A DNA stretch of 64,000 bases, taken from positions 1 to 64,000 of the forward strand of contig NZ_BCUV01000007.1 of assembly GCF_001591405.1 (NCBI RefSeq), written 5' to 3'. This stretch comes from Janibacter terrae NBRC 107853 (GTDB lineage Bacteria; Actinomycetota; Actinomycetes; Actinomycetales; Dermatophilaceae). The translations under genes were made by a program, and so were the position numbers. Shown in pieces: positions 6,050-63,408 of the stretch (its first letter is position 1; each line of letters starts with the position of its first letter). The notes below the pieces were generated by a model. It ran no database searches. It was not told the origin of the DNA and was given only the letters and a program-made list of their open reading frames with translations.

Positions 6050-6060
6050 GTCATGCCCGG

Positions 6061-6120
6061 CCGAGACTCGGGCCATGGCCACAGAACCCGGCTCTTTGCG
6101 ACCATGCGCCACGTCTCGGG
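6061..6120. repeat. family-A palindrome, copy 1 (3' side of DUF559 gene 1)
   Basis: Imperfect inverted repeat: CCGAGACTCGGGCCATGG on the left, and on the right the complement of CCGAGACGTGGCGCATGG. It ends 6 bases before the stop of the DUF559 gene. Other family members are at 7115-7174, 9287-9347, 45757-45819 and 63328-63408. Confidence 0.8.
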
Positions 6121-6126
6121 GGCCGG

Positions 6127-7023
6127 TCAGAGGAGGAGATCCCCGAGCCGGGTGATGAGCCGCCGGGTGTAGGCCGCCCTGACCAGGTGGATGTTGGTCA
6201 GCTCCACGTACGTCCACCCCGCGGCTTCGAACCGCGCCCGACGGTCCCGCTCGTACTGCCACGCGCTCCGATCGGTGCGGTGCTGGTCGCCGTCGTACTC
6301 CGCCACGACCTTGGGCTCGCGCCACAGGAAGTCCGCGACGCCGATGAGGACGCCCCAGTCGTCGCAGACCCTGACGTTGAGCTCGGGCGTGGGCAGACCG
6401 TGGTCCCGGAACAGCAGCCGGGCCTCGGACTCCTTCGGGGAGGCGGATCCCGGGTCGAGGAAGGGGGCGACCTCCCGCAGCGTGCGGATGCCGCGTCGGC
6501 CGGACAGCGTCTCGAGGTGGCGCAGGACCTGGGCCGGCGTCACGTCATGGTCGCGGAGCAGGGCGTCACCGGCGGCCACGAGCTGTGGGCGCGTCCAGCT
6601 GCCGGCCAGGTCCGACCAGGTGTGCAGGGCGGCGACGACCGGCAACCCGTGCACCTGCGTCACGGCGCGCGTCTCGAGGCCGTTGTGGCTGAGCACGCCG
6701 CGCCGCTCGAGCCACGGCCGGCCGCTGTCGCGACTGACGTGGACCGGCTCGTCGCGGCTCCACGGCCGGGGCGTCGGCAGCCCGAGCAACCGGGCCGCCG
6801 TGAGATGACTGACGACTGCGTCCCGGGGCACCACCGAGCGGACCAGCCTCGCCAGCTCACCGACGTCGGACGGTCCCTGCTGACCCGGGCGGAACCGCAG
6901 TCCGTGCGACGGGATCTCGAAGCCCGTGCGCAGACGCCCCCGGACGCCCAGGTCCCGCGCGTCGGCCATCGTGAAGCCGGCACCGGACAGGTCCCCCGGC
7001 AGCTGCTGCGGTCGTCTTCCCAT
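6127..7023 (-). CDS. DUF559 (Vsr-like) endonuclease-fold protein with AbiEi-like N-terminal region
   Basis: A 298-aa protein. The N-terminal two thirds resemble the AbiEi/transcriptional-regulator-like region often found ahead of DUF559 in actinobacteria (SHLTAARLLGLPTP...PVHV). The C-terminal third has the DUF559 nuclease-fold pattern: SEARLLFRDHGLPTPELNV, IGVADFLW, KVVAEYDGDQH and DRRARFEAAGW, with Glu/Asp/Asp in the expected restriction-endonuclease-like arrangement. The start at ATG 7023 is preferred over 7065. The function is unknown; it may be a nuclease or an antitoxin-like protein. The gene sits between two family-A palindromes (6061-6120 and 7115-7174), as if the whole 1.1-kb piece were one inserted unit between bL37 and sigR. 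Confidence 0.75.
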   Translation of the reverse strand: MGRRPQQLPGDLSGAGFTMADARDLGVRGRLRTGFEIPSHGLRFRPGQQGPSDVGELARLVRSVVPRDAVVSHLTAARLLGLPTPRPWSRDEPVHVSRDSGRPWLERRGVLSHNGLETRAVTQVHGLPVVAALHTWSDLAGSWTRPQLVAAGDALLRDHDVTPAQVLRHLETLSGRRGIRTLREVAPFLDPGSASPKESEARLLFRDHGLPTPELNVRVCDDWGVLIGVADFLWREPKVVAEYDGDQHRTDRSAWQYERDRRARFEAAGWTYVELTNIHLVRAAYTRRLITRLGDLLL

Positions 7024-7114
7024 GTACCGACCCCACCCTCCCCAGCGCCTCGGGCACACCCCCACCGGCCTTCTGTGGACGGTGCGGGTCCGCCCCCTTC
7101 GCCTGTGGACTCAT

Positions 7115-7174
7115 CGACACTCGGGCGATGGCCTCAAAAGTGGCGACATAGCGGCCATGAGCCGAGTCTCGGCG
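7115..7174. repeat. family-A palindrome, copy 2 (5' side of DUF559 gene 1)
   Basis: CGACACTCGGGCGATGGCC on the left faces GGCCATGAGCCGAGTCTCGG on the right, with about four mismatches in the stem. It ends three bases before the SigR promoter at 7178. Confidence 0.8.
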
Positions 7175-9286: not shown

Positions 9287-9347
9287 CCCAGACGCGGGCA
9301 ATGGCCGCTATCCGGGGTGGATAGCGGCCATCAGCCGAGTCTCGCGG
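9287..9347. repeat. family-A palindrome, copy 3, between convergent genes
   Basis: ATGGCCGCTATCC (9301-9313) and GGATAGCGGCCAT (9319-9331) form a perfect 13-bp stem with a GGGGT loop, extended by imperfect outer arms. It fills the gap between galE and the desaturase stop at 9348 and can act as a bidirectional terminator. Confidence 0.85.
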
Positions 9348-12972: not shown

Positions 12973-13038
12973 CTGCATTCCCCTAGGGCAATGGCACATC
13001 TTGACGTCGAGAGTCTGCATTGCCCTAGGGGAATGCAG
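12973..13038. repeat. family-C palindrome, copy 1 (perfect 21-bp arms)
   Basis: The left arm 12973-12993 (CTGCATTCCCCTAGGGCAATG) is the exact complement of the right arm 13018-13038 across a 24-base loop. The right arm overlaps the last codons of the minus-strand hydrolase: on that strand GCATTCCCCTAG reads Ala-Phe-Pro-stop. The element ends two convergent genes. A second copy is at 42796-42849. Confidence 0.92.
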
Positions 13039-17510: not shown

Positions 17511-18305
17511 ATGCTCCCCTCCGACTACGCCGATGACCTGCGCCTCGCCCACGTGCTGGCCGACCAGGTCGAGCGGATCACGATGGCACGGTTCCAGGCC
17601 TCCGACCTCGTCGTCGAGTCCAAGCCGGACCTGACCCCGGTCAGCGACGCCGACCGCAGCTGCGAGGAAGCCATCCGCGCCCAGCTGAGCCGTGCCCGCG
17701 GCCGCGACGCGATCCTCGGGGAGGAGTTCGGCAGCACCGGCACCTCCCAGCGTCGCTGGATCATCGACCCGATCGACGGCACCAAGAACTACGTCCGCGG
17801 CGTGCCCGTCTGGGCCACGCTCATCGGCCTCGTCGACGGCGAGGACTGCGTCGTCGGCCTCGTCGCCGCGCCGGCGCTCGGTCGCCGATGGTGGGCCGCC
17901 AAGGGCGCGGGGGCGTGGACCGGTCGCTCGCTCTCCCAGGCCAGGCAGATCAGGGCCTCCCGGGTCTCGCGGCTGCAGGACGCCTCCCTGTCGTACAGCT
18001 CGCTGGAGGGCTGGCGCGAGCGCGGCCGCGGCAGGGCCTTCCTCAACCTCACCTCGGACCTGTGGCGCACGCGTGCGTACGGGGACTTCTGGTCGTACAT
18101 GCTCGTCGCCGAGGGCGCGGTCGACATCGCCGCCGAGCCCGACCTCGAGGTCTACGACATGGCCGCGCTCGTCGCCATCGTCGAGGAGGCCGGCGGCCGG
18201 TTCACCTCGCTCGAGGGCGCACCGGGCCCCTGGGGCGGCAACGCCGTGGCCTCCAACGGGTTGCTGCACGACGAGGTGCTGGCCCGGTTGTCGCCCGACG
18301 CCTGA
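17511..18305 (+). CDS. hisN: histidinol-phosphatase, inositol-monophosphatase type
   Basis: Mg-dependent phosphatase of 264 aa; the aroA-rsgA-hisN neighbourhood is typical of actinobacterial HisN, which completes histidine synthesis. Motifs: GEEFG metal-binding Glu, [20 protein letters not shown] (Asp and Thr metal ligands), and the C-terminal [19 protein letters not shown] with its Asp. TACTTT at 17499-17504 lies exactly six bases before ATG 17511, which suggests a leaderless internal promoter. A different inositol-phosphate or nucleotide phosphatase is possible but less likely. The gene is followed after seven bases by a family-B palindrome. Confidence 0.85.
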
Positions 18306-18312
18306 GGGGGTG

Positions 18313-18402
18313 TGGTTGTGTGTTGAAGTGGTAGCTGGCAGCGCCGGCACCCATGTCCACGAGGTTGCTGGCTCGCAGGACTACCGGTTCAACACACAAC
18401 CA
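18313..18402. repeat. family-B palindrome, copy 1 (3' side of DUF559 gene 2)
   Basis: The arms TGGTTGTGTGTTGAAGTGGTAG (18313-18334) and its complement at 18381-18402 differ at two positions. The right part, from GGCTCGCAGGACTACC onwards, recurs almost identically in copy 2 at 19281-19369. It ends six bases before the DUF559 stop. Confidence 0.9.
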
Positions 18403-18407
18403 TCGGC

Positions 18408-19205
18408 TCAGAGAGCCCACCGCTCGGGTGGATCCAGGTGCCGACCGCTGCGGATCACCCGGAGCAGGGTGGCCGACGTCCGGCGCCACCCGGTGAAGAC
18501 CATCCAGTGCGTCAGGCGCGTCGTGAAGTACCCGAGCTCGAGAGCCCGCAGGTCCCGCGCACGGTCAGTGGCGTAGGTCGTCACACCGGTGTGGTGCGCC
18601 CGGCTGTCGCACTCGAGGATCCACCGGCGCCCGGCCAGGTTGTCCACCCTCCCCACACCGTCGATCTCCACCTGCGGGGTGACCGTCACGTTGTGCAGCT
18701 GCATGAAGAGCCTGGCCTTGCTCTCGGTCCCGGACTGCGCCAGGCCGGAGGCGCGCGCCAAGACGCGGGCCACCCCCCGCGGTGCGCCCTCGGCCAGGTC
18801 CCTCACCTGCTGTGCGCCGAGCAGACCCTGGTGGAGCGCGGAGTCCACGATGATCCCGACATCCAGCGGGTCCAGGCAGCCCATCGCGTGCTTCAGCGCG
18901 AGCTGGGGTGAGGCGACAGCAGAGTCCTCGGGCCATCGGTGGTGCCACCCGTGCCCCACGAACCCGGGGGGTGTGCTCCCTCGACGCGAGTAGACGTGCA
19001 CGCCCGCAACCGGGGGGACCCACAGCCCGTGCTGCTCTGCCGCCGTGGTGCAGGTCGGCCGCAGTCCCTCGGCCAGCGCCGCCCGGACCTCCTGCGGCGC
19101 GTCGGGCGAGACATAGTACCGACCGACCCTCAGTACCTCGCCTCGTGCCACGGCCGCGGCCAGCTCGCGCGCAGTCCCCCGCCACTGGTCCCGTGTCCTG
19201 ATCAT
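18408..19205 (-). CDS. DUF559-like (Vsr-fold) endonuclease domain protein, bracketed by palindromes
   Basis: A 265-aa protein of unknown function. The C-terminal domain has the DUF559/Vsr-like layout: ESKARLFM, VGRVDNLAGRRWILECDSRAHH and DRARDLRALELGYFTTRLT, with Glu, Asp and a Glu-x-Asp in nuclease positions. The N-terminal part resembles the regulator-like region (GEVLRVGRYYVSP) seen ahead of DUF559. It is related in architecture to 6127-7023 but diverged. The gene plus its two flanking family-B palindromes form a 1,057-base unit between hisN and the M16 genes. No transposase is present. Confidence 0.72.
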   Translation of the reverse strand: MIRTRDQWRGTARELAAAVARGEVLRVGRYYVSPDAPQEVRAALAEGLRPTCTTAAEQHGLWVPPVAGVHVYSRRGSTPPGFVGHGWHHRWPEDSAVASPQLALKHAMGCLDPLDVGIIVDSALHQGLLGAQQVRDLAEGAPRGVARVLARASGLAQSGTESKARLFMQLHNVTVTPQVEIDGVGRVDNLAGRRWILECDSRAHHTGVTTYATDRARDLRALELGYFTTRLTHWMVFTGWRRTSATLLRVIRSGRHLDPPERWAL

Positions 19206-19280
19206 CGGACCAGCACAGCCGCCGAGCGGCCCGCCGCGCAGGGGATATGCGGACCTGTGGACAGCCGGCCCAGGTCAAGG

Positions 19281-19369
19281 TGGTGTGTTGAAGAGGTAGT
19301 CCCGGGAGCCGGCACTCCTGGATACCGGGTCCCCGGCTCGCAGGACTACCGCTTCAACACACAACCATC
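19281..19369. repeat. family-B palindrome, copy 2 (5' side of DUF559 gene 2)
   Basis: The left arm from 19283 (GTGTGTTGAAGAGGTAGTCC...GAGCCGG) faces a right arm 19335-19369 (CCGGCTCGCAGGACTACC, then GCTTCAACACACAACCATC) with about four mismatches over 32 pairs. Its right end reads ...CCATCA, and the TCA (19368-19370) is the stop codon of the M16 gene on the minus strand. Confidence 0.9.
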
Positions 19370-20726
19370 AGGTGGGGACGACGGTCACCGGGCCCAGACC
19401 GAGGGCCTCGACCTCGTCCCGGTACGTCGATGCGTCACCCACGACGACGATCGTCCAGCTGTGGTCGACGTGCGAGCGCCAGGCCGCGTCGAGGTCGGCC
19501 AGGGTCAGCTCGCGCATGGCGGCGATGACGTCGCTGGTGAAGGTGAGCGGCAGCTCGTCGCTCGCCAGCCCGACCGTCTCGTCGGCGATGGCGTCGGCGG
19601 TGTCGTAGCGGCCGGGTGCGGTGAGGGTCAGGAAGTCGATCCCGGCGCGGGTCTCGGCCTCGGAGAAGCCTTCGCCGACGCCGTCGAGGATCTCGCGCAG
19701 CAGGCGGAGCGAGTCGACCGTCGCGTCGGCGCGCACCGACCCCGAGATGGCGAAGGCGGACCCGACCTGGCGCGGCCGGAAGCCGGCTCGGATGCCGTAG
19801 GTGTAGCCCTTGTCCTCGCGCAGCACCTGGTCGATGCGGGCGTTGGGCGCACCACCGACGACATAGGCGATGACCGGGAAGGGGGCCCAACCCGAGTCGA
19901 CCCGTCGGTCCGGGCCCGGCCCGCCGATGAGGATCTCGGACTGCACGGAGCCCGGCCGGTCGACGAGCACGACGCGCGCCGCGTCGGCGGCCCGGGGCGC
20001 CGTCGTGCGGTCGACCGACACCGTGCGACCACCGGTCGTCCACGCACCGAGCGACCCCGTGAGGAGCTCCTCGATGTCGATCCCGGTGAGGTCGCCGGCG
20101 ACGACGATGGTCGCGCCCTCGGGGTGCACGTGCGTCGCGTGGAAGTCGACGACGTCCTGGCGCGTGATCGCGGCGACGCTCTCGGGGGTCCCCGACCCGG
20201 GACGGCTGGCCCGGCTGTCCGCGGCGTAGTACGTCGCGGCCCACTCCTTGAGCGCCCGACGACTGGCGGAGGCGCGCTCCTGCTCGATCTCGGCCAGGCG
20301 GGTGCGCCGCAGCCGCGCGACCTCCTCCTCGGCGAATGCCGGCTCGGTGATGCACTCGGTGAGCAGGTCCAGCGCCGCGGCGAGGTTGCGCTGCGGGACG
20401 TCCATGTCGACGCCGAGCGTGGCCTCGCTCATCCCGGCACCGATGGCCACGCCACGGCGCTCGAGCAGCTCCGACAGCTCGCGCTGCCCGTGCGTGCGGG
20501 TGCCCTCGTCGAGCAGCCGCGCCATGATCCACGCGACCCCCTCGACCTCGCGCGGCTCGTGCCGCAGCGCGGCCGGGATCGTCACCCGCACCGAGACGAC
20601 GTACTGCCCCGGCACGTCGTGGACGAGCGCCCGGATGCCGTTGGGCAGCTCGATCTCGCGCGGCCGCGGGAAGGACCAGTCGGCCGGAGGGGCGACCTGC
20701 GGACGGGGCACGATCGTGGTGCTCAT
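19368..20726 (-). CDS. M16-family peptidase homologue, non-catalytic subunit
   Basis: A 452-aa pitrilysin-family protein. The zinc motif HxxEH is absent at its expected place (GVAWIMARLLDEGT), while the C-terminal Arg/Tyr substrate-binding region is present (REDKGYTYGIRAGF). This is the usual split in bacterial M16 heterodimers, where the partner carries the metal site. The ATG at 20726 overlaps the end of the catalytic subunit gene by four bases. The stop codon lies in a family-B palindrome, so the last residues (TVVPT) may differ from relatives. Confidence 0.88.
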   Translation of the reverse strand: MSTTIVPRPQVAPPADWSFPRPREIELPNGIRALVHDVPGQYVVSVRVTIPAALRHEPREVEGVAWIMARLLDEGTRTHGQRELSELLERRGVAIGAGMSEATLGVDMDVPQRNLAAALDLLTECITEPAFAEEEVARLRRTRLAEIEQERASASRRALKEWAATYYAADSRASRPGSGTPESVAAITRQDVVDFHATHVHPEGATIVVAGDLTGIDIEELLTGSLGAWTTGGRTVSVDRTTAPRAADAARVVLVDRPGSVQSEILIGGPGPDRRVDSGWAPFPVIAYVVGGAPNARIDQVLREDKGYTYGIRAGFRPRQVGSAFAISGSVRADATVDSLRLLREILDGVGEGFSEAETRAGIDFLTLTAPGRYDTADAIADETVGLASDELPLTFTSDVIAAMRELTLADLDAAWRSHVDHSWTIVVVGDASTYRDEVEALGLGPVTVVPT

Positions 20727-42248: not shown

Positions 42249-42808
42249 CCCGGGAGGACGACCTCCGGGCGCTGCTCACCTCGTGGTCGGCGCCGGACGC
42301 CGCCCAGGAGGCGCTGCGCGCCGAGTACCTCGGGCACCTCGACGCGCACGCCGGTGCCTCCCCTGACGTCCTGGCGAAGGGGGGCCCCCCCGCCCACTTC
42401 ACCGCCTCCTGCCTCGTCGTCGACGAGGCTCGGGAGCGGGTGCTGCTGACGCTGCACCGCAAGGTCGGACGGTGGCTGCAGTTCGGCGGGCACATCGAGC
42501 CCGGCGACGCGTCGGTCGCCGCCGCCGCGCTGCGCGAGGCCGTCGAGGAGTCGGGCCTGCCCGCCGGTGCGCTGACCCTGCTGCCGGGGCTGGCCCAGCT
42601 CGACCGGCACGCGCTCGGGTCGGGCTTTCGCCGGTGCACCGAGCACCTCGACCTGCGCTGGGTGGCCGTGGCCGGTGCCGGGGTCGACCCGGTCGTCTCC
42701 GACGAGTCGCTCGACGTCGCGTGGTGGCCCGTCGACGCCCTGCCGCCGGACACGGACGCCTCCGTCCTCGCCCTCGCCGCCGACGCCACCGAGGTCGCAT
42801 TCCCCTAG
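42245..42808 (+). CDS. NUDIX hydrolase
   Basis: A 187-aa pyrophosphohydrolase of unknown substrate. The Nudix box GGHIEPGDASVAAAALREAV, EESGL is complete except for Asp in place of the Glu after the second Gly. The start is GTG 42245, overlapping the previous stop (GTGA). The C-terminus EVAFP and the TAG stop are encoded by the left arm of family-C palindrome copy 2, the same Ala-Phe-Pro-stop ending as the unrelated hydrolase at 13025. Confidence 0.86.
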   Translation: MTREDDLRALLTSWSAPDAAQEALRAEYLGHLDAHAGASPDVLAKGGPPAHFTASCLVVDEARERVLLTLHRKVGRWLQFGGHIEPGDASVAAAALREAVEESGLPAGALTLLPGLAQLDRHALGSGFRRCTEHLDLRWVAVAGAGVDPVVSDESLDVAWWPVDALPPDTDASVLALAADATEVAFP

Positions 42809-42849
42809 GGCAATGCAGCCTCGATCGTGCATTGCCCCAAGGGAATGCG
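42796..42849. repeat. family-C palindrome, copy 2
   Basis: CGCATTCCCCTAGGGCAAT on the left faces its complement (two mismatches over 22 pairs) ending at 42849, with a nine-base loop. The core CATTCCCCTAGGGCAATGCA is shared with 12973-13038. The left arm encodes the end of the NUDIX gene. Confidence 0.92.
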
Positions 42850-45756: not shown

Positions 45757-45819
45757 CGCCGAGACTCGGGTGATGGCTGCTATTCACTCGTAATAGCAGC
45801 CATCACCCGAGTCTCGGCG
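45757..45819. repeat. family-A palindrome, copy 4 (perfect 28-bp arms)
   Basis: CGCCGAGACTCGGGTGATGG plus CTGCTATT (45757-45784) is the exact complement of 45792-45819 around a seven-base loop. It is the best-preserved member of the family and probably the nearest to the ancestral element. It lies between the HhH-GPD gene and the 41-aa ORF, both on the minus strand. Confidence 0.97.
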
Positions 45820-61657: not shown

Positions 61658-63331
61658 GTGCGTGACCCCAAGACACTCGCCCGAGGCGCCGCCCGCCGTG
61701 CCTACTCGACCCTGCAGCGCCTGCGGCCCCGGCCGACGGCGTCCGACGGGTCGAGCGCCGCTGACGTCACGGCGCGCGTCGCGACGCTGACCGAGGCCCG
61801 CGACCACGCGGCGGCCGTCGAGCTCGTCCGCAGCGAGCTGCCGGCACTCGGCACGGACTCCGCCTTCCTCGACCAGGCCCGCCGCAGTGCCTCGCGCGCC
61901 GGCGAGCCGAGCCTGCAGCAGACGATCACGCGGCAGCAGCTCGCGGTGACCCCGCGCTTCGCGCGGCCGGCGCGCACCCGGCTCGAGGCCGCCCTGGCCC
62001 AGGTGACCGGTCGCCTCCGGGAGACCGACCCCGACTGGTCACCGCACCTCGACCCGACCGCCGTGCGCGCCGCGCGCACCGTGCAGGAGCGCGAAGGGAG
62101 GGAACCCTCCCTCCGCGTCGCCCACCTGCTGAAGATCGCTCTGCCCCACCGGCAGTCGGGCTACTCAGTGCGCACCCGATACAACCTCGCCGCGCAGGTC
62201 GCGTCCGGGGTCGAGCCGGTGGCGATCACCGCGCTCGACTTCCCCGGCGACGCCGGCACGCCCGCGACCGAGGAGGTCCACGGGATCCGGCACCGCCACC
62301 TGCTGCGGGCCGACGTCCCGGGCGCGGAGACCGTCGACGCCCACCTCGAGGCCTACGCGGCACACCTGCTGCCGGTCGTCGCCGAGGAGGCCCCCGACCT
62401 GCTGCACGTGCACTCCGGCTCGCGCGGCTACGACGCGGCCCTCGTCGGCGGGGCCGTCGCCGACGCGCTCGACATCCCCTGGGTCTACGAGGTGCGCGGG
62501 TTCTTCGAGGCGATCTGGAGCCAGGACCTCGACCGGGCGGAGTCGGCCGAGACCTACCGTCGCCGGCGCGACACCGACACCCGCTGCATGGCAGCGGCCG
62601 ACGCGGTCATCACGCTCAGCGAGTCGATGCGCTCGGACATCATCGCCCGCGGGATCCCCGCCGTGCGGGTGCACGTCGTGCCCAACGGCGTCGACGCGAG
62701 CGCCTTCGCCCCCCGGCCGCGCCGTGACGACCTCGTCGAGCAGTACGGCCTCGTCGGGCGGTTCGTCTTCGGCTACGTCTCCAACCTCGACCACTACCGC
62801 GAGGGCCAGGAGCTGCTCGTCGACGCCGCCGTCGCGCTGCGCGGGCGGGGCGTCGACGCGGTCGCGCTCATCGTCGGCGACGGCACCCGCCGGGCCGAGA
62901 TCGAGGCGCACGCCGCGGCGGTCGGCGCGGGCGACGCGGTCGTCTTCACCGGCCGCGTCCCCCACGAGGAGGTCCTCGACCACTACGCCCTCGTCGACGT
63001 CTTCGTCGTCCCCCGCGTGGACGAGCGGGCGGCGCGGCTGGTCACGCCGCTCAAGCCCTTCGAGGCCATGGCCGCCGGCCTGCCGGTGCTCGTGTCCGAC
63101 CTGCCGGCCCTGACCGAGATCACCGGTGACGGCGAGCGCGGCGAGTCCTTCGCCGTCGGGGACGCCGAGGCGCTCACCGAGGCCCTCGTGCGCCTGGCCG
63201 GGGACCCGGCGCGCCGGGCCGAGCTGGCCGCGGCCGGGCGGGCCTGGGTCGAGACCGAGCGCTCCTGGGAGGCCAACGGCGTTCGCTACCGCGAGATCTA
63301 CGAGCAGGTGCTCGGCTCCCACCGGGGCTGA
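61658..63331 (+). CDS. GT4-family glycosyltransferase
   Basis: A 557-aa cytoplasmic glycosyltransferase. An N-terminal helical extension (about 130 residues) of unknown role precedes the GT-B core: RVAHLLKIALPHRQSGYSVR, the acceptor-side HVHSGSRGYDA, and donor-side GYVSNLDHYREG, VVFTGRVPHEEVL and the nucleotide-sugar-binding VTPLKPFEAMAAGLPVLV (E of the EX7E motif). TAGGCT at 61646-61651 is six bases before the GTG at 61658, suggesting a leaderless start. It faces a second glycosyltransferase across a palindrome, and the two probably act in surface-polysaccharide synthesis. Confidence 0.88.
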   Translation: MRDPKTLARGAARRAYSTLQRLRPRPTASDGSSAADVTARVATLTEARDHAAAVELVRSELPALGTDSAFLDQARRSASRAGEPSLQQTITRQQLAVTPRFARPARTRLEAALAQVTGRLRETDPDWSPHLDPTAVRAARTVQEREGREPSLRVAHLLKIALPHRQSGYSVRTRYNLAAQVASGVEPVAITALDFPGDAGTPATEEVHGIRHRHLLRADVPGAETVDAHLEAYAAHLLPVVAEEAPDLLHVHSGSRGYDAALVGGAVADALDIPWVYEVRGFFEAIWSQDLDRAESAETYRRRRDTDTRCMAAADAVITLSESMRSDIIARGIPAVRVHVVPNGVDASAFAPRPRRDDLVEQYGLVGRFVFGYVSNLDHYREGQELLVDAAVALRGRGVDAVALIVGDGTRRAEIEAHAAAVGAGDAVVFTGRVPHEEVLDHYALVDVFVVPRVDERAARLVTPLKPFEAMAAGLPVLVSDLPALTEITGDGERGESFAVGDAEALTEALVRLAGDPARRAELAAAGRAWVETERSWEANGVRYREIYEQVLGSHRG

Positions 63332-63408
63332 GCCCGCCGAGACTCGGGCGATGGCGCCTATCGAGCCCCTGTTGGAGCCATCACCCGAGTGTCGCGGGCG
63401 GGCTCAGA
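63328..63408. repeat. family-A palindrome, copy 5, containing both convergent stop codons
   Basis: The outer arms CTGAGCCCGCC (63328-63338) and GGCGGGCTCAG (63398-63408) are complementary; inside them the family core GAGACTCGGG(C/T)GATGGC faces GCCATCACCCGAGTGTC. TGA at 63329-63331 ends the GT4 gene and TCA at 63404-63406 is the stop of the minus-strand gene, so both stops are in the arms. Confidence 0.9.

Follow-up and report, generated by a model that had tools for sequence, protein, structure and literature searches.

The locus considered here raises the question of whether a nuclease gene and the two long hairpins around it can form a transferable element that is built on a nuclease and not on a transposase. 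It lies in the first 64,000 nucleotides of contig NZ_BCUV01000007.1 of Janibacter terrae NBRC 107853, a stretch called in full the window. A reading of the window from its letters alone (the sequence-only reading) had proposed a transferable cassette, comparable to the REP/RAYT systems, in which repetitive extragenic palindromic (REP) sequences accompany a transposase gene (RAYT). The comparison with related genomes argues for a REPtron-like unit, selfish or domesticated, with an unrelated enzyme, and a probability of about 0.58 is given to this reading. The recurring layout suggests an undescribed kind of self-spreading DNA element. In what follows, the letters G, L and C with numbers denote genomes, loci and contigs.

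As had been described, the nuclease open reading frame (ORF) of 798 bases lies between hisN (plus strand) and an M16-like gene (minus strand) and is enclosed by two matching hairpins in direct orientation, here termed type B. Since the nuclease gene is on the minus strand, the hairpin at 19279-19369 is the upstream copy. The arms of the downstream hairpin (18313-18334 and 18381-18402) are 91% complementary, those of the upstream hairpin (19269-19312 and 19333-19376) 82%, and the two hairpins aligned as direct repeats share 78% identity over 91 nt. The flank-versus-flank match score is 89, against 30 for the best of 200 shuffles; a score of 45 has been used as the cut-off for a flank match. The arm motif GTGTGTTGAANNGGTAG has four occurrences in the window (at most two mismatches) versus 0.02 expected. 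The overlap of the hairpin end, as first drawn, with the stop codon of the M16-like gene (19368-19370) has also been confirmed. In the whole genome, four type-B hairpins are found with up to two mismatches: the two flanking copies and solo copies at C3:210769 and C7:710540. The similarity of the flanking pair is 0.76, and that to the solo copies read averages 0.74 (best 0.83); the flanking copies in this genome are hardly more alike than each is to solo copies. No DUF1814 toxin gene, the partner in AbiE type IV systems, stands beside the nuclease gene, its neighbours being hisN and the M16-like gene.

The DUF559 label proposed for the protein holds in part. The window protein itself reaches 0 Pfam families, and no meaningful family label was obtained for it from Pfam, NCBIfam, PHROGs and PADLOC. 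The label stands for four of the eight relatives scanned, in which Pfam reached DUF559 (2/5 and 2/3 in two sets), and the predicted fold of the window protein agrees with a Vsr-like (DUF559) nuclease; Pfam matches to PF18741 (MTES_1575) are below cut-off. According to the predicted fold, the catalytic domain is nearest, among the chains compared, to a homing endonuclease and resembles I-Bth0305I and Vsr, with the conserved acidic residues and the histidine of EDxHD homing endonucleases present. Vsr mismatch endonucleases nick at T:G mismatches in a methylase site; the likeness here is one of fold. One annotated homologue carries the label of an AbiEi-family antitoxin-domain protein. The ratio of nonsynonymous to synonymous substitution rates (dN/dS) is 0.18-0.39 across six pairs, and by this measure the nuclease is kept by selection.

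Matching flanks across the order and a dispersed palindrome in G187

A profile of 13 sequences (E <= 1e-20), applied to 396 genomes of the order, matched 176 genomes in 44 of the 109 genera, with 1 to 6 matches per genome. A total of 85 loci has been read, 26 given for the best matches and 59 chosen for spread, with profile-based gene spans and flanks of 600 bp; L172 and L206 are one locus and were counted once (L206 dropped). The flanks match at 45 of the 85 homologue loci, 36 of these matches being palindromic in at least one copy. Control neighbouring genes from the longer loci reach the cut-off in 0 of 239 cases (best score 43), and control tiles that ignore gene limits in 11 of 762. The association of the nuclease gene with matching palindromes is strong and general.

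When flanks of different loci are paired, 98 of 7140 pairs score at or above the cut-off, and at 36 of the 45 loci no flank matches better than the locus's own partner; the flank match is therefore mostly private to the locus, and this holds also for paralogues within a single genome (G221, G542). In the sequences compared, a palindrome generally resembles its partner across the gene and not the palindromes of other loci. Matching flanks recur, type B does so within Janibacter, and over the order each gene mostly has its own palindrome. According to one alternative, the palindromes are spread otherwise and the protein is a domesticated hairpin nuclease that polices or repairs cruciforms, the flanking copies being its preferred sites. 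This is improbable, since it would not explain why most loci should have a distinct palindrome that agrees on the two sides.

The pattern of matching flanks is found in eight of 11 Janibacter paralogue loci (600-bp flanks) and in a Brachybacterium genome bin (L156); at L133 the match is by eye only. Five weak homologues from other genera of the family divide into two with a match (G030b, 68; G079, 58), one matching by eye (G030a) and two with none (G130, 28; G028, 27). Homologues are nearly absent from plasmids, and the flanks of one on a Tsukamurella plasmid do not match (38). The nuclease gene at L236 lies between identical 54-nt direct repeats without palindromic structure. A record labelled Bacteriophage sp. 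(L372, MT839994.1) contains a homologue whose palindromes closely resemble those of G523 (L189), and because of this resemblance the record may be bacterial DNA.

Dispersal of a palindrome away from its gene is seen in G187, where the palindrome of the nuclease gene occurs at 13 further places in the 2.28-Mb genome. It is matched in seven of the nine genomes of the genus, most of the weaker matches covering only the core. By crude ORF calls, 19 of the 20 places read (13 in G187, seven in two congeners) are not covered by an ORF, and some overlap an ORF end. Covariation was analysed in an alignment of 14 copies (13 of G187 and one of G552); L360, one of the 13 places in G187, where another palindrome is strongest, and L365-L370, from other genomes and with different outer arms, were left out. 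Both sides have changed in 17 of 32 arm pairs, in 30 cells, while 500 shuffles gave means of 7.4 and 10.6 and none as high; related copies can exceed such shuffles, but most of the covariation signal is also lost when the partners are slid. The paired changes keep the arms of the G187 palindrome complementary.

The hisN-M16 site and solo hairpins in Janibacter

A nuclease homologue (E <= 1e-3) has been identified in 14 of 16 Janibacter genomes, in all 14 beyond the M16-like gene and toward hisN, which is at most 200 bp away in most of them and 0.7-2.3 kb further on in G001, G003, G006 and G014. The gene of G007 is spread over two contigs. The flanking palindromes measure about 70-90 bp and their type differs between species, type B being present at the site in G000, G006, G007, G008, G009, G010, G012, G013 and G014, and type A in G001, G003, G004 (diverged), G005 and G011. 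With G007 left out of the scoring, the flanks match at 13 of the 14 loci scored at this site (11 of 12 in a first set, the window with 89 and G005 with 64). G091, from another genus, has the same gene arrangement with its own third palindrome type (C). Sites without the cassette, which the sequence-only reading had suggested looking for, are found in two further genera: 77 bp in G016 and 22 bp in G079 separate the facing ends of M16 and hisN, and neither gap holds a homologue. In G002, whose Janibacter genome is complete and lacks the gene, the gap contains 0.9 kb of other sequence.

Two further observations concern the make-up of individual loci. The nuclease gene of G005 (L089 / L090, C1:899568-926646) consists of two parts about 26 kb apart, as if split by a large insert, and its outer flanks still match. 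The downstream palindrome of G003 (L086) looks mosaic, with a type-A left part and a type-B right end (GTTGAACACACAACCATC). A second gene copy in G006 (3461327) was rejected as a case of transposition, the region from NDH to doxX being repeated near both contig ends.

The tree of the neighbouring genes (NDH, two M16 genes and hisN; 13 genomes, 1599 columns) places G003 among the type-B species and G006 and G014 with the type-A species; the nuclease tree gives the reverse. Type B as one clade is rejected by the neighbour genes (p-AU of the approximately unbiased test, 1.2e-57), with groups named after the types had been seen; the clade of the neighbours is rejected by the nuclease (p-AU 1.3e-4), again with groups so named, for which the test does not allow. 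Four changes of palindrome type are needed on the neighbour tree and two on the nuclease tree, two being the minimum for three types. Since the palindrome type tracks the nuclease tree and not the neighbour-gene tree, the cassette has probably been swapped as a unit at a fixed site. Joint exchange of the gene and its palindromes between Janibacter species at one site is a well-supported interpretation of these sequences. Homing endonucleases cut the allele without their element, and for such allele replacement the tree conflict alone speaks here. Of the transferable cassette first proposed, the exchange of gene and hairpins at one fixed site thus stands, whereas no intact second copy of the window's nuclease gene at a new site has been seen in Janibacter, only one shortened remnant. 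Under a plain homing nuclease, cutting of the empty or foreign allele would drive replacement at the hisN-M16 gap, and the palindromes would only mark the boundaries of cutting and repair. Such an explanation is very unlikely, as it leaves the dispersed copies unaccounted for.

Type-B arms (at most one mismatch) occur in 11 of the 16 Janibacter genomes. Where the nuclease is of type A, such arms are missing from G001, G003, G004 and G005, and a single one is found in G011; G002, without the gene, has none, and G015 (79% complete, no homologue detected) has a hairpin. Several of the solo hairpins are common to more than one species, and others are found in one species only. At 30 of 37 further arm loci fetched (at most four mismatches per arm) the type-B hairpin is complete, 79-80 nt from arm to arm, which speaks against the view that the palindromes are miniature inverted-repeat transposable elements (MITEs), belonging to ordinary insertion sequences and located beside these genes by chance. 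The nearly fixed length of type B, about 91 bp, and its long terminal inverted repeats would suit MITEs. Many loci would each require an insertion sequence of their own, lying in every case on both sides of a member of this one gene family, and no long element with these ends was noticed among the arm loci read, where no search was aimed at one; the explanation is accordingly regarded as highly improbable.

Type-A hairpins, counted as arm pairs at fixed spacing, number 11 in G003 and nine in G011 (the two flanking copies included in each), two in G010 and one each in G000 and G015, with 0 in the other 11 genomes. The diverged type-A forms of G001, G004 and G005 are uncounted because the search pattern fits the G003/G011 form, and single hits at three mismatches are mostly chance. 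A site in G000 (C6:800375) and single hits in other Janibacter may be relics of a type-A variant (GGTCGTCCTGGTGCA) in genomes with a type-B nuclease.

In G013, one solo hairpin (L042), situated between two convergent genes, is followed by about 90 nt with a match to the nuclease gene's 3' end. In G009, 14 bp separate the sequences that match the two convergent genes, an almost clean empty site, and G007 has the L042 insertion too, eroded. At another solo site checked for empty relatives the synteny is broken. It may also be supposed that the AbiEi-like domain represses its own gene from the upstream palindrome of a cassette and that the downstream copy acts as a terminator; the gene would then encode an ordinary defence or toxin-antitoxin-like nuclease with nothing mobile about it. 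This is unlikely, as the solo copies elsewhere, the match of the downstream copy to the upstream one and the ectopic remnant are all left unexplained.

Relation to known systems and the proposed mechanism

The statements on published systems refer to those parts of the cited papers that were available. In REPtrons, a RAYT gene is flanked by copies of a dispersed, mainly intergenic REP palindrome of 20-40 bp (PMC3733652), and enzyme and palindrome co-evolve (PMC8266576). The comparison drawn by the sequence-only reading holds, since matching flanks with unrelated sequences are found at many homologues and solo copies are dispersed where searched. The likeness consists in an enzyme gene between two repeat copies, here at 45 of 85 homologues and not at all of them; in further copies dispersed in the same genome, here of type B, type A, the G187 palindrome and, within the window, P2 (see below), which lie mostly in intergenic positions; and in the absence of RAYT genes from plasmids, where none have been observed (PMC8049555), beside the near absence of the nuclease homologues. 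There are also differences. RAYT is an HUH Y1 transposase, while the enzyme here has a predicted Vsr fold and a putative AbiEi-like part; the palindromes are longer, about 50-90 bp; and up to six gene copies occur per genome, whereas RAYTs are called single-copy (PMC8049555). In REPtrons a GTAG tag stands at one foot of the stem. Here, as seen by eye, GTAG is located inside the arms, and not at the foot, in type B, the G004 form and the G187 palindrome; neither type C nor the G003/G011 form of type A contains it. A RAYT as the mover of the palindromes was rejected, the Y1 transposase PF01797 being found in 0 of 16 Janibacter genomes by a search that was positive in five of 14 control genomes.

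TIRtrons, in which tyrosine transposase genes are flanked by long inverted repeats (PMC3733652), are similar in that the repeats differ from gene to gene and some belong to dispersed families; they differ in having a tyrosine transposase in place of a nuclease. The EDxHD homing endonucleases (I-Bth0305I) are mostly phage-derived, with long multi-domain DNA-binding parts, and the available descriptions make no mention of palindromes (PMC3943268). For the Vsr and VsrA (DUF559) mismatch endonucleases a role in mismatch repair has been proposed, and neither an AbiEi-like part nor palindromes appear in the available descriptions (PMC12907096); the likeness to Vsr lies in the predicted fold. The MTES_1575 Vsr-REase (PF18741) has a nuclease domain of the same kind, there one domain of a very large multi-domain protein, and the paper uses neither "palindrom" nor "inverted repeat" (PMC3710099). 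In the open-access literature, with most subscription journals and preprints outside its coverage, no paper was found that joins DUF559/Vsr-like nucleases with flanking or dispersed palindromes; the earlier statement that no system of this kind has been described is upheld within that coverage.

From the anatomy of the loci and the REPtron parallel it may be inferred that the nuclease spreads the palindromes. In the proposed mechanism, the palindrome would be recognised by the N-terminal part, be it in duplex form or after extrusion into a cruciform or a single-stranded hairpin. The nuclease would nick or cut there, or in a target gap close to the end of a gene. With a copy that bears the palindrome as repair template, the short element could then be inserted elsewhere, giving solo copies, or an allele that lacks the cassette or has another type could receive all of it (homing). 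Such recognition would tie the nuclease to its palindrome, for which reason both sides would match and the type would change with the nuclease. More broadly, AbiEi-like/Vsr-like DUF559 nucleases may drive palindromic mobile elements of Actinobacteria that form a large class, as yet undescribed. The enzyme of such an element would be a nuclease in place of a transposase; it would recognise the long palindrome that belongs to it, spread this as solo copies and home the whole cassette into the same site in other species, and each nuclease lineage would evolve a palindrome of its own. This proposal is tentative and falls a little short of even odds. If nucleases do drive the palindromes, a large gene family, with genes in 176 of the 396 genomes of the order, would gain a function, REP-like repeats would have come into being alongside enzymes that are not related, and dozens of natural pairs of enzyme and palindrome, their sequences known, could be used to study hairpin recognition and movement by a nuclease.

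Several observations weigh against the REPtron-like reading. Across the order, 40 of the 85 loci have no flank match at the cut-off; nine of the 45 matches are without a clear palindrome, and orientation varies among all 45, with 18 direct, 10 inverted and 17 undecided. Four of the eight matching Janibacter paralogue loci are not clearly palindromic, the other four having a clear palindrome. At the hisN-M16 site the flanks of G001 miss the cut-off (31), and elsewhere in the window the flanks of the second cassette stay below it as well, with 41 against 32 for the best of 200 shuffles. The nuclease gene remains at one site in Janibacter. Hairpins mostly remote from any such gene, and a vertically inherited gene always present at this locus, had been named beforehand as signs against a cassette; half of this was found, in the common site of 14 of 16 Janibacter genomes and in most hairpins being solo. 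A clear gene remnant is present at one of 32 loci compared with cassettes (30 of them with a hairpin), no target-site duplication is evident at L042, the only site with an empty relative, and type-B arms exhibit little two-sided change. No report on the activity of any member of the AbiEi-like/Vsr-like group was found in the literature covered, as far as its available parts go.

Feature coordinates and other palindromes of the window

The features of both cassettes and the solo P2 palindromes are collected in Table 1.

Table 1. Position of the nuclease cassettes, their neighbours and the P2 palindromes in the window.
Feature	Position	Strand	Remark
Downstream type-B hairpin	18313..18402	.	in the interval from the hisN stop codon to that of the nuclease gene
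Nuclease gene, 265 aa	18408..19205	-	putative AbiEi-like N-terminal part and predicted Vsr-like (DUF559) C-terminal domain
Upstream type-B hairpin	19279..19369	.	overlaps the stop codon of the M16-like gene
hisN (histidinol-phosphatase), neighbour	17511..18305	+	TIGR02067 match
M16-like peptidase gene, neighbour	19368..20720	-	span used in comparisons
Second DUF559 gene	6127..7023	-	PF04480, 20.8 bits, cut-off 20.6
Decayed P2 palindrome, downstream of second gene	6060..6119	.	
Decayed P2 palindrome, upstream of second gene	7112..7173	.	
Solo P2 palindrome, imperfect	9288..9346	.	
Solo P2 palindrome, 63 nt	45757..45819	.	top score in the window palindrome scan
Solo P2 palindrome	63328..63407	.	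between the ends of two convergent ORFs

The gene at 6127-7023 appears from its sequence surroundings to represent a second, decayed cassette. The arms of P2 occur eight times in the window versus 0.23 expected (at most three mismatches). A third palindrome family (CATTCCCCTAGGGCAATG), for which no partner gene was found, lies at window positions 12973-13038 and 42796-42849, and its motif is also present at the Janibacter loci L019, L082 and L247.
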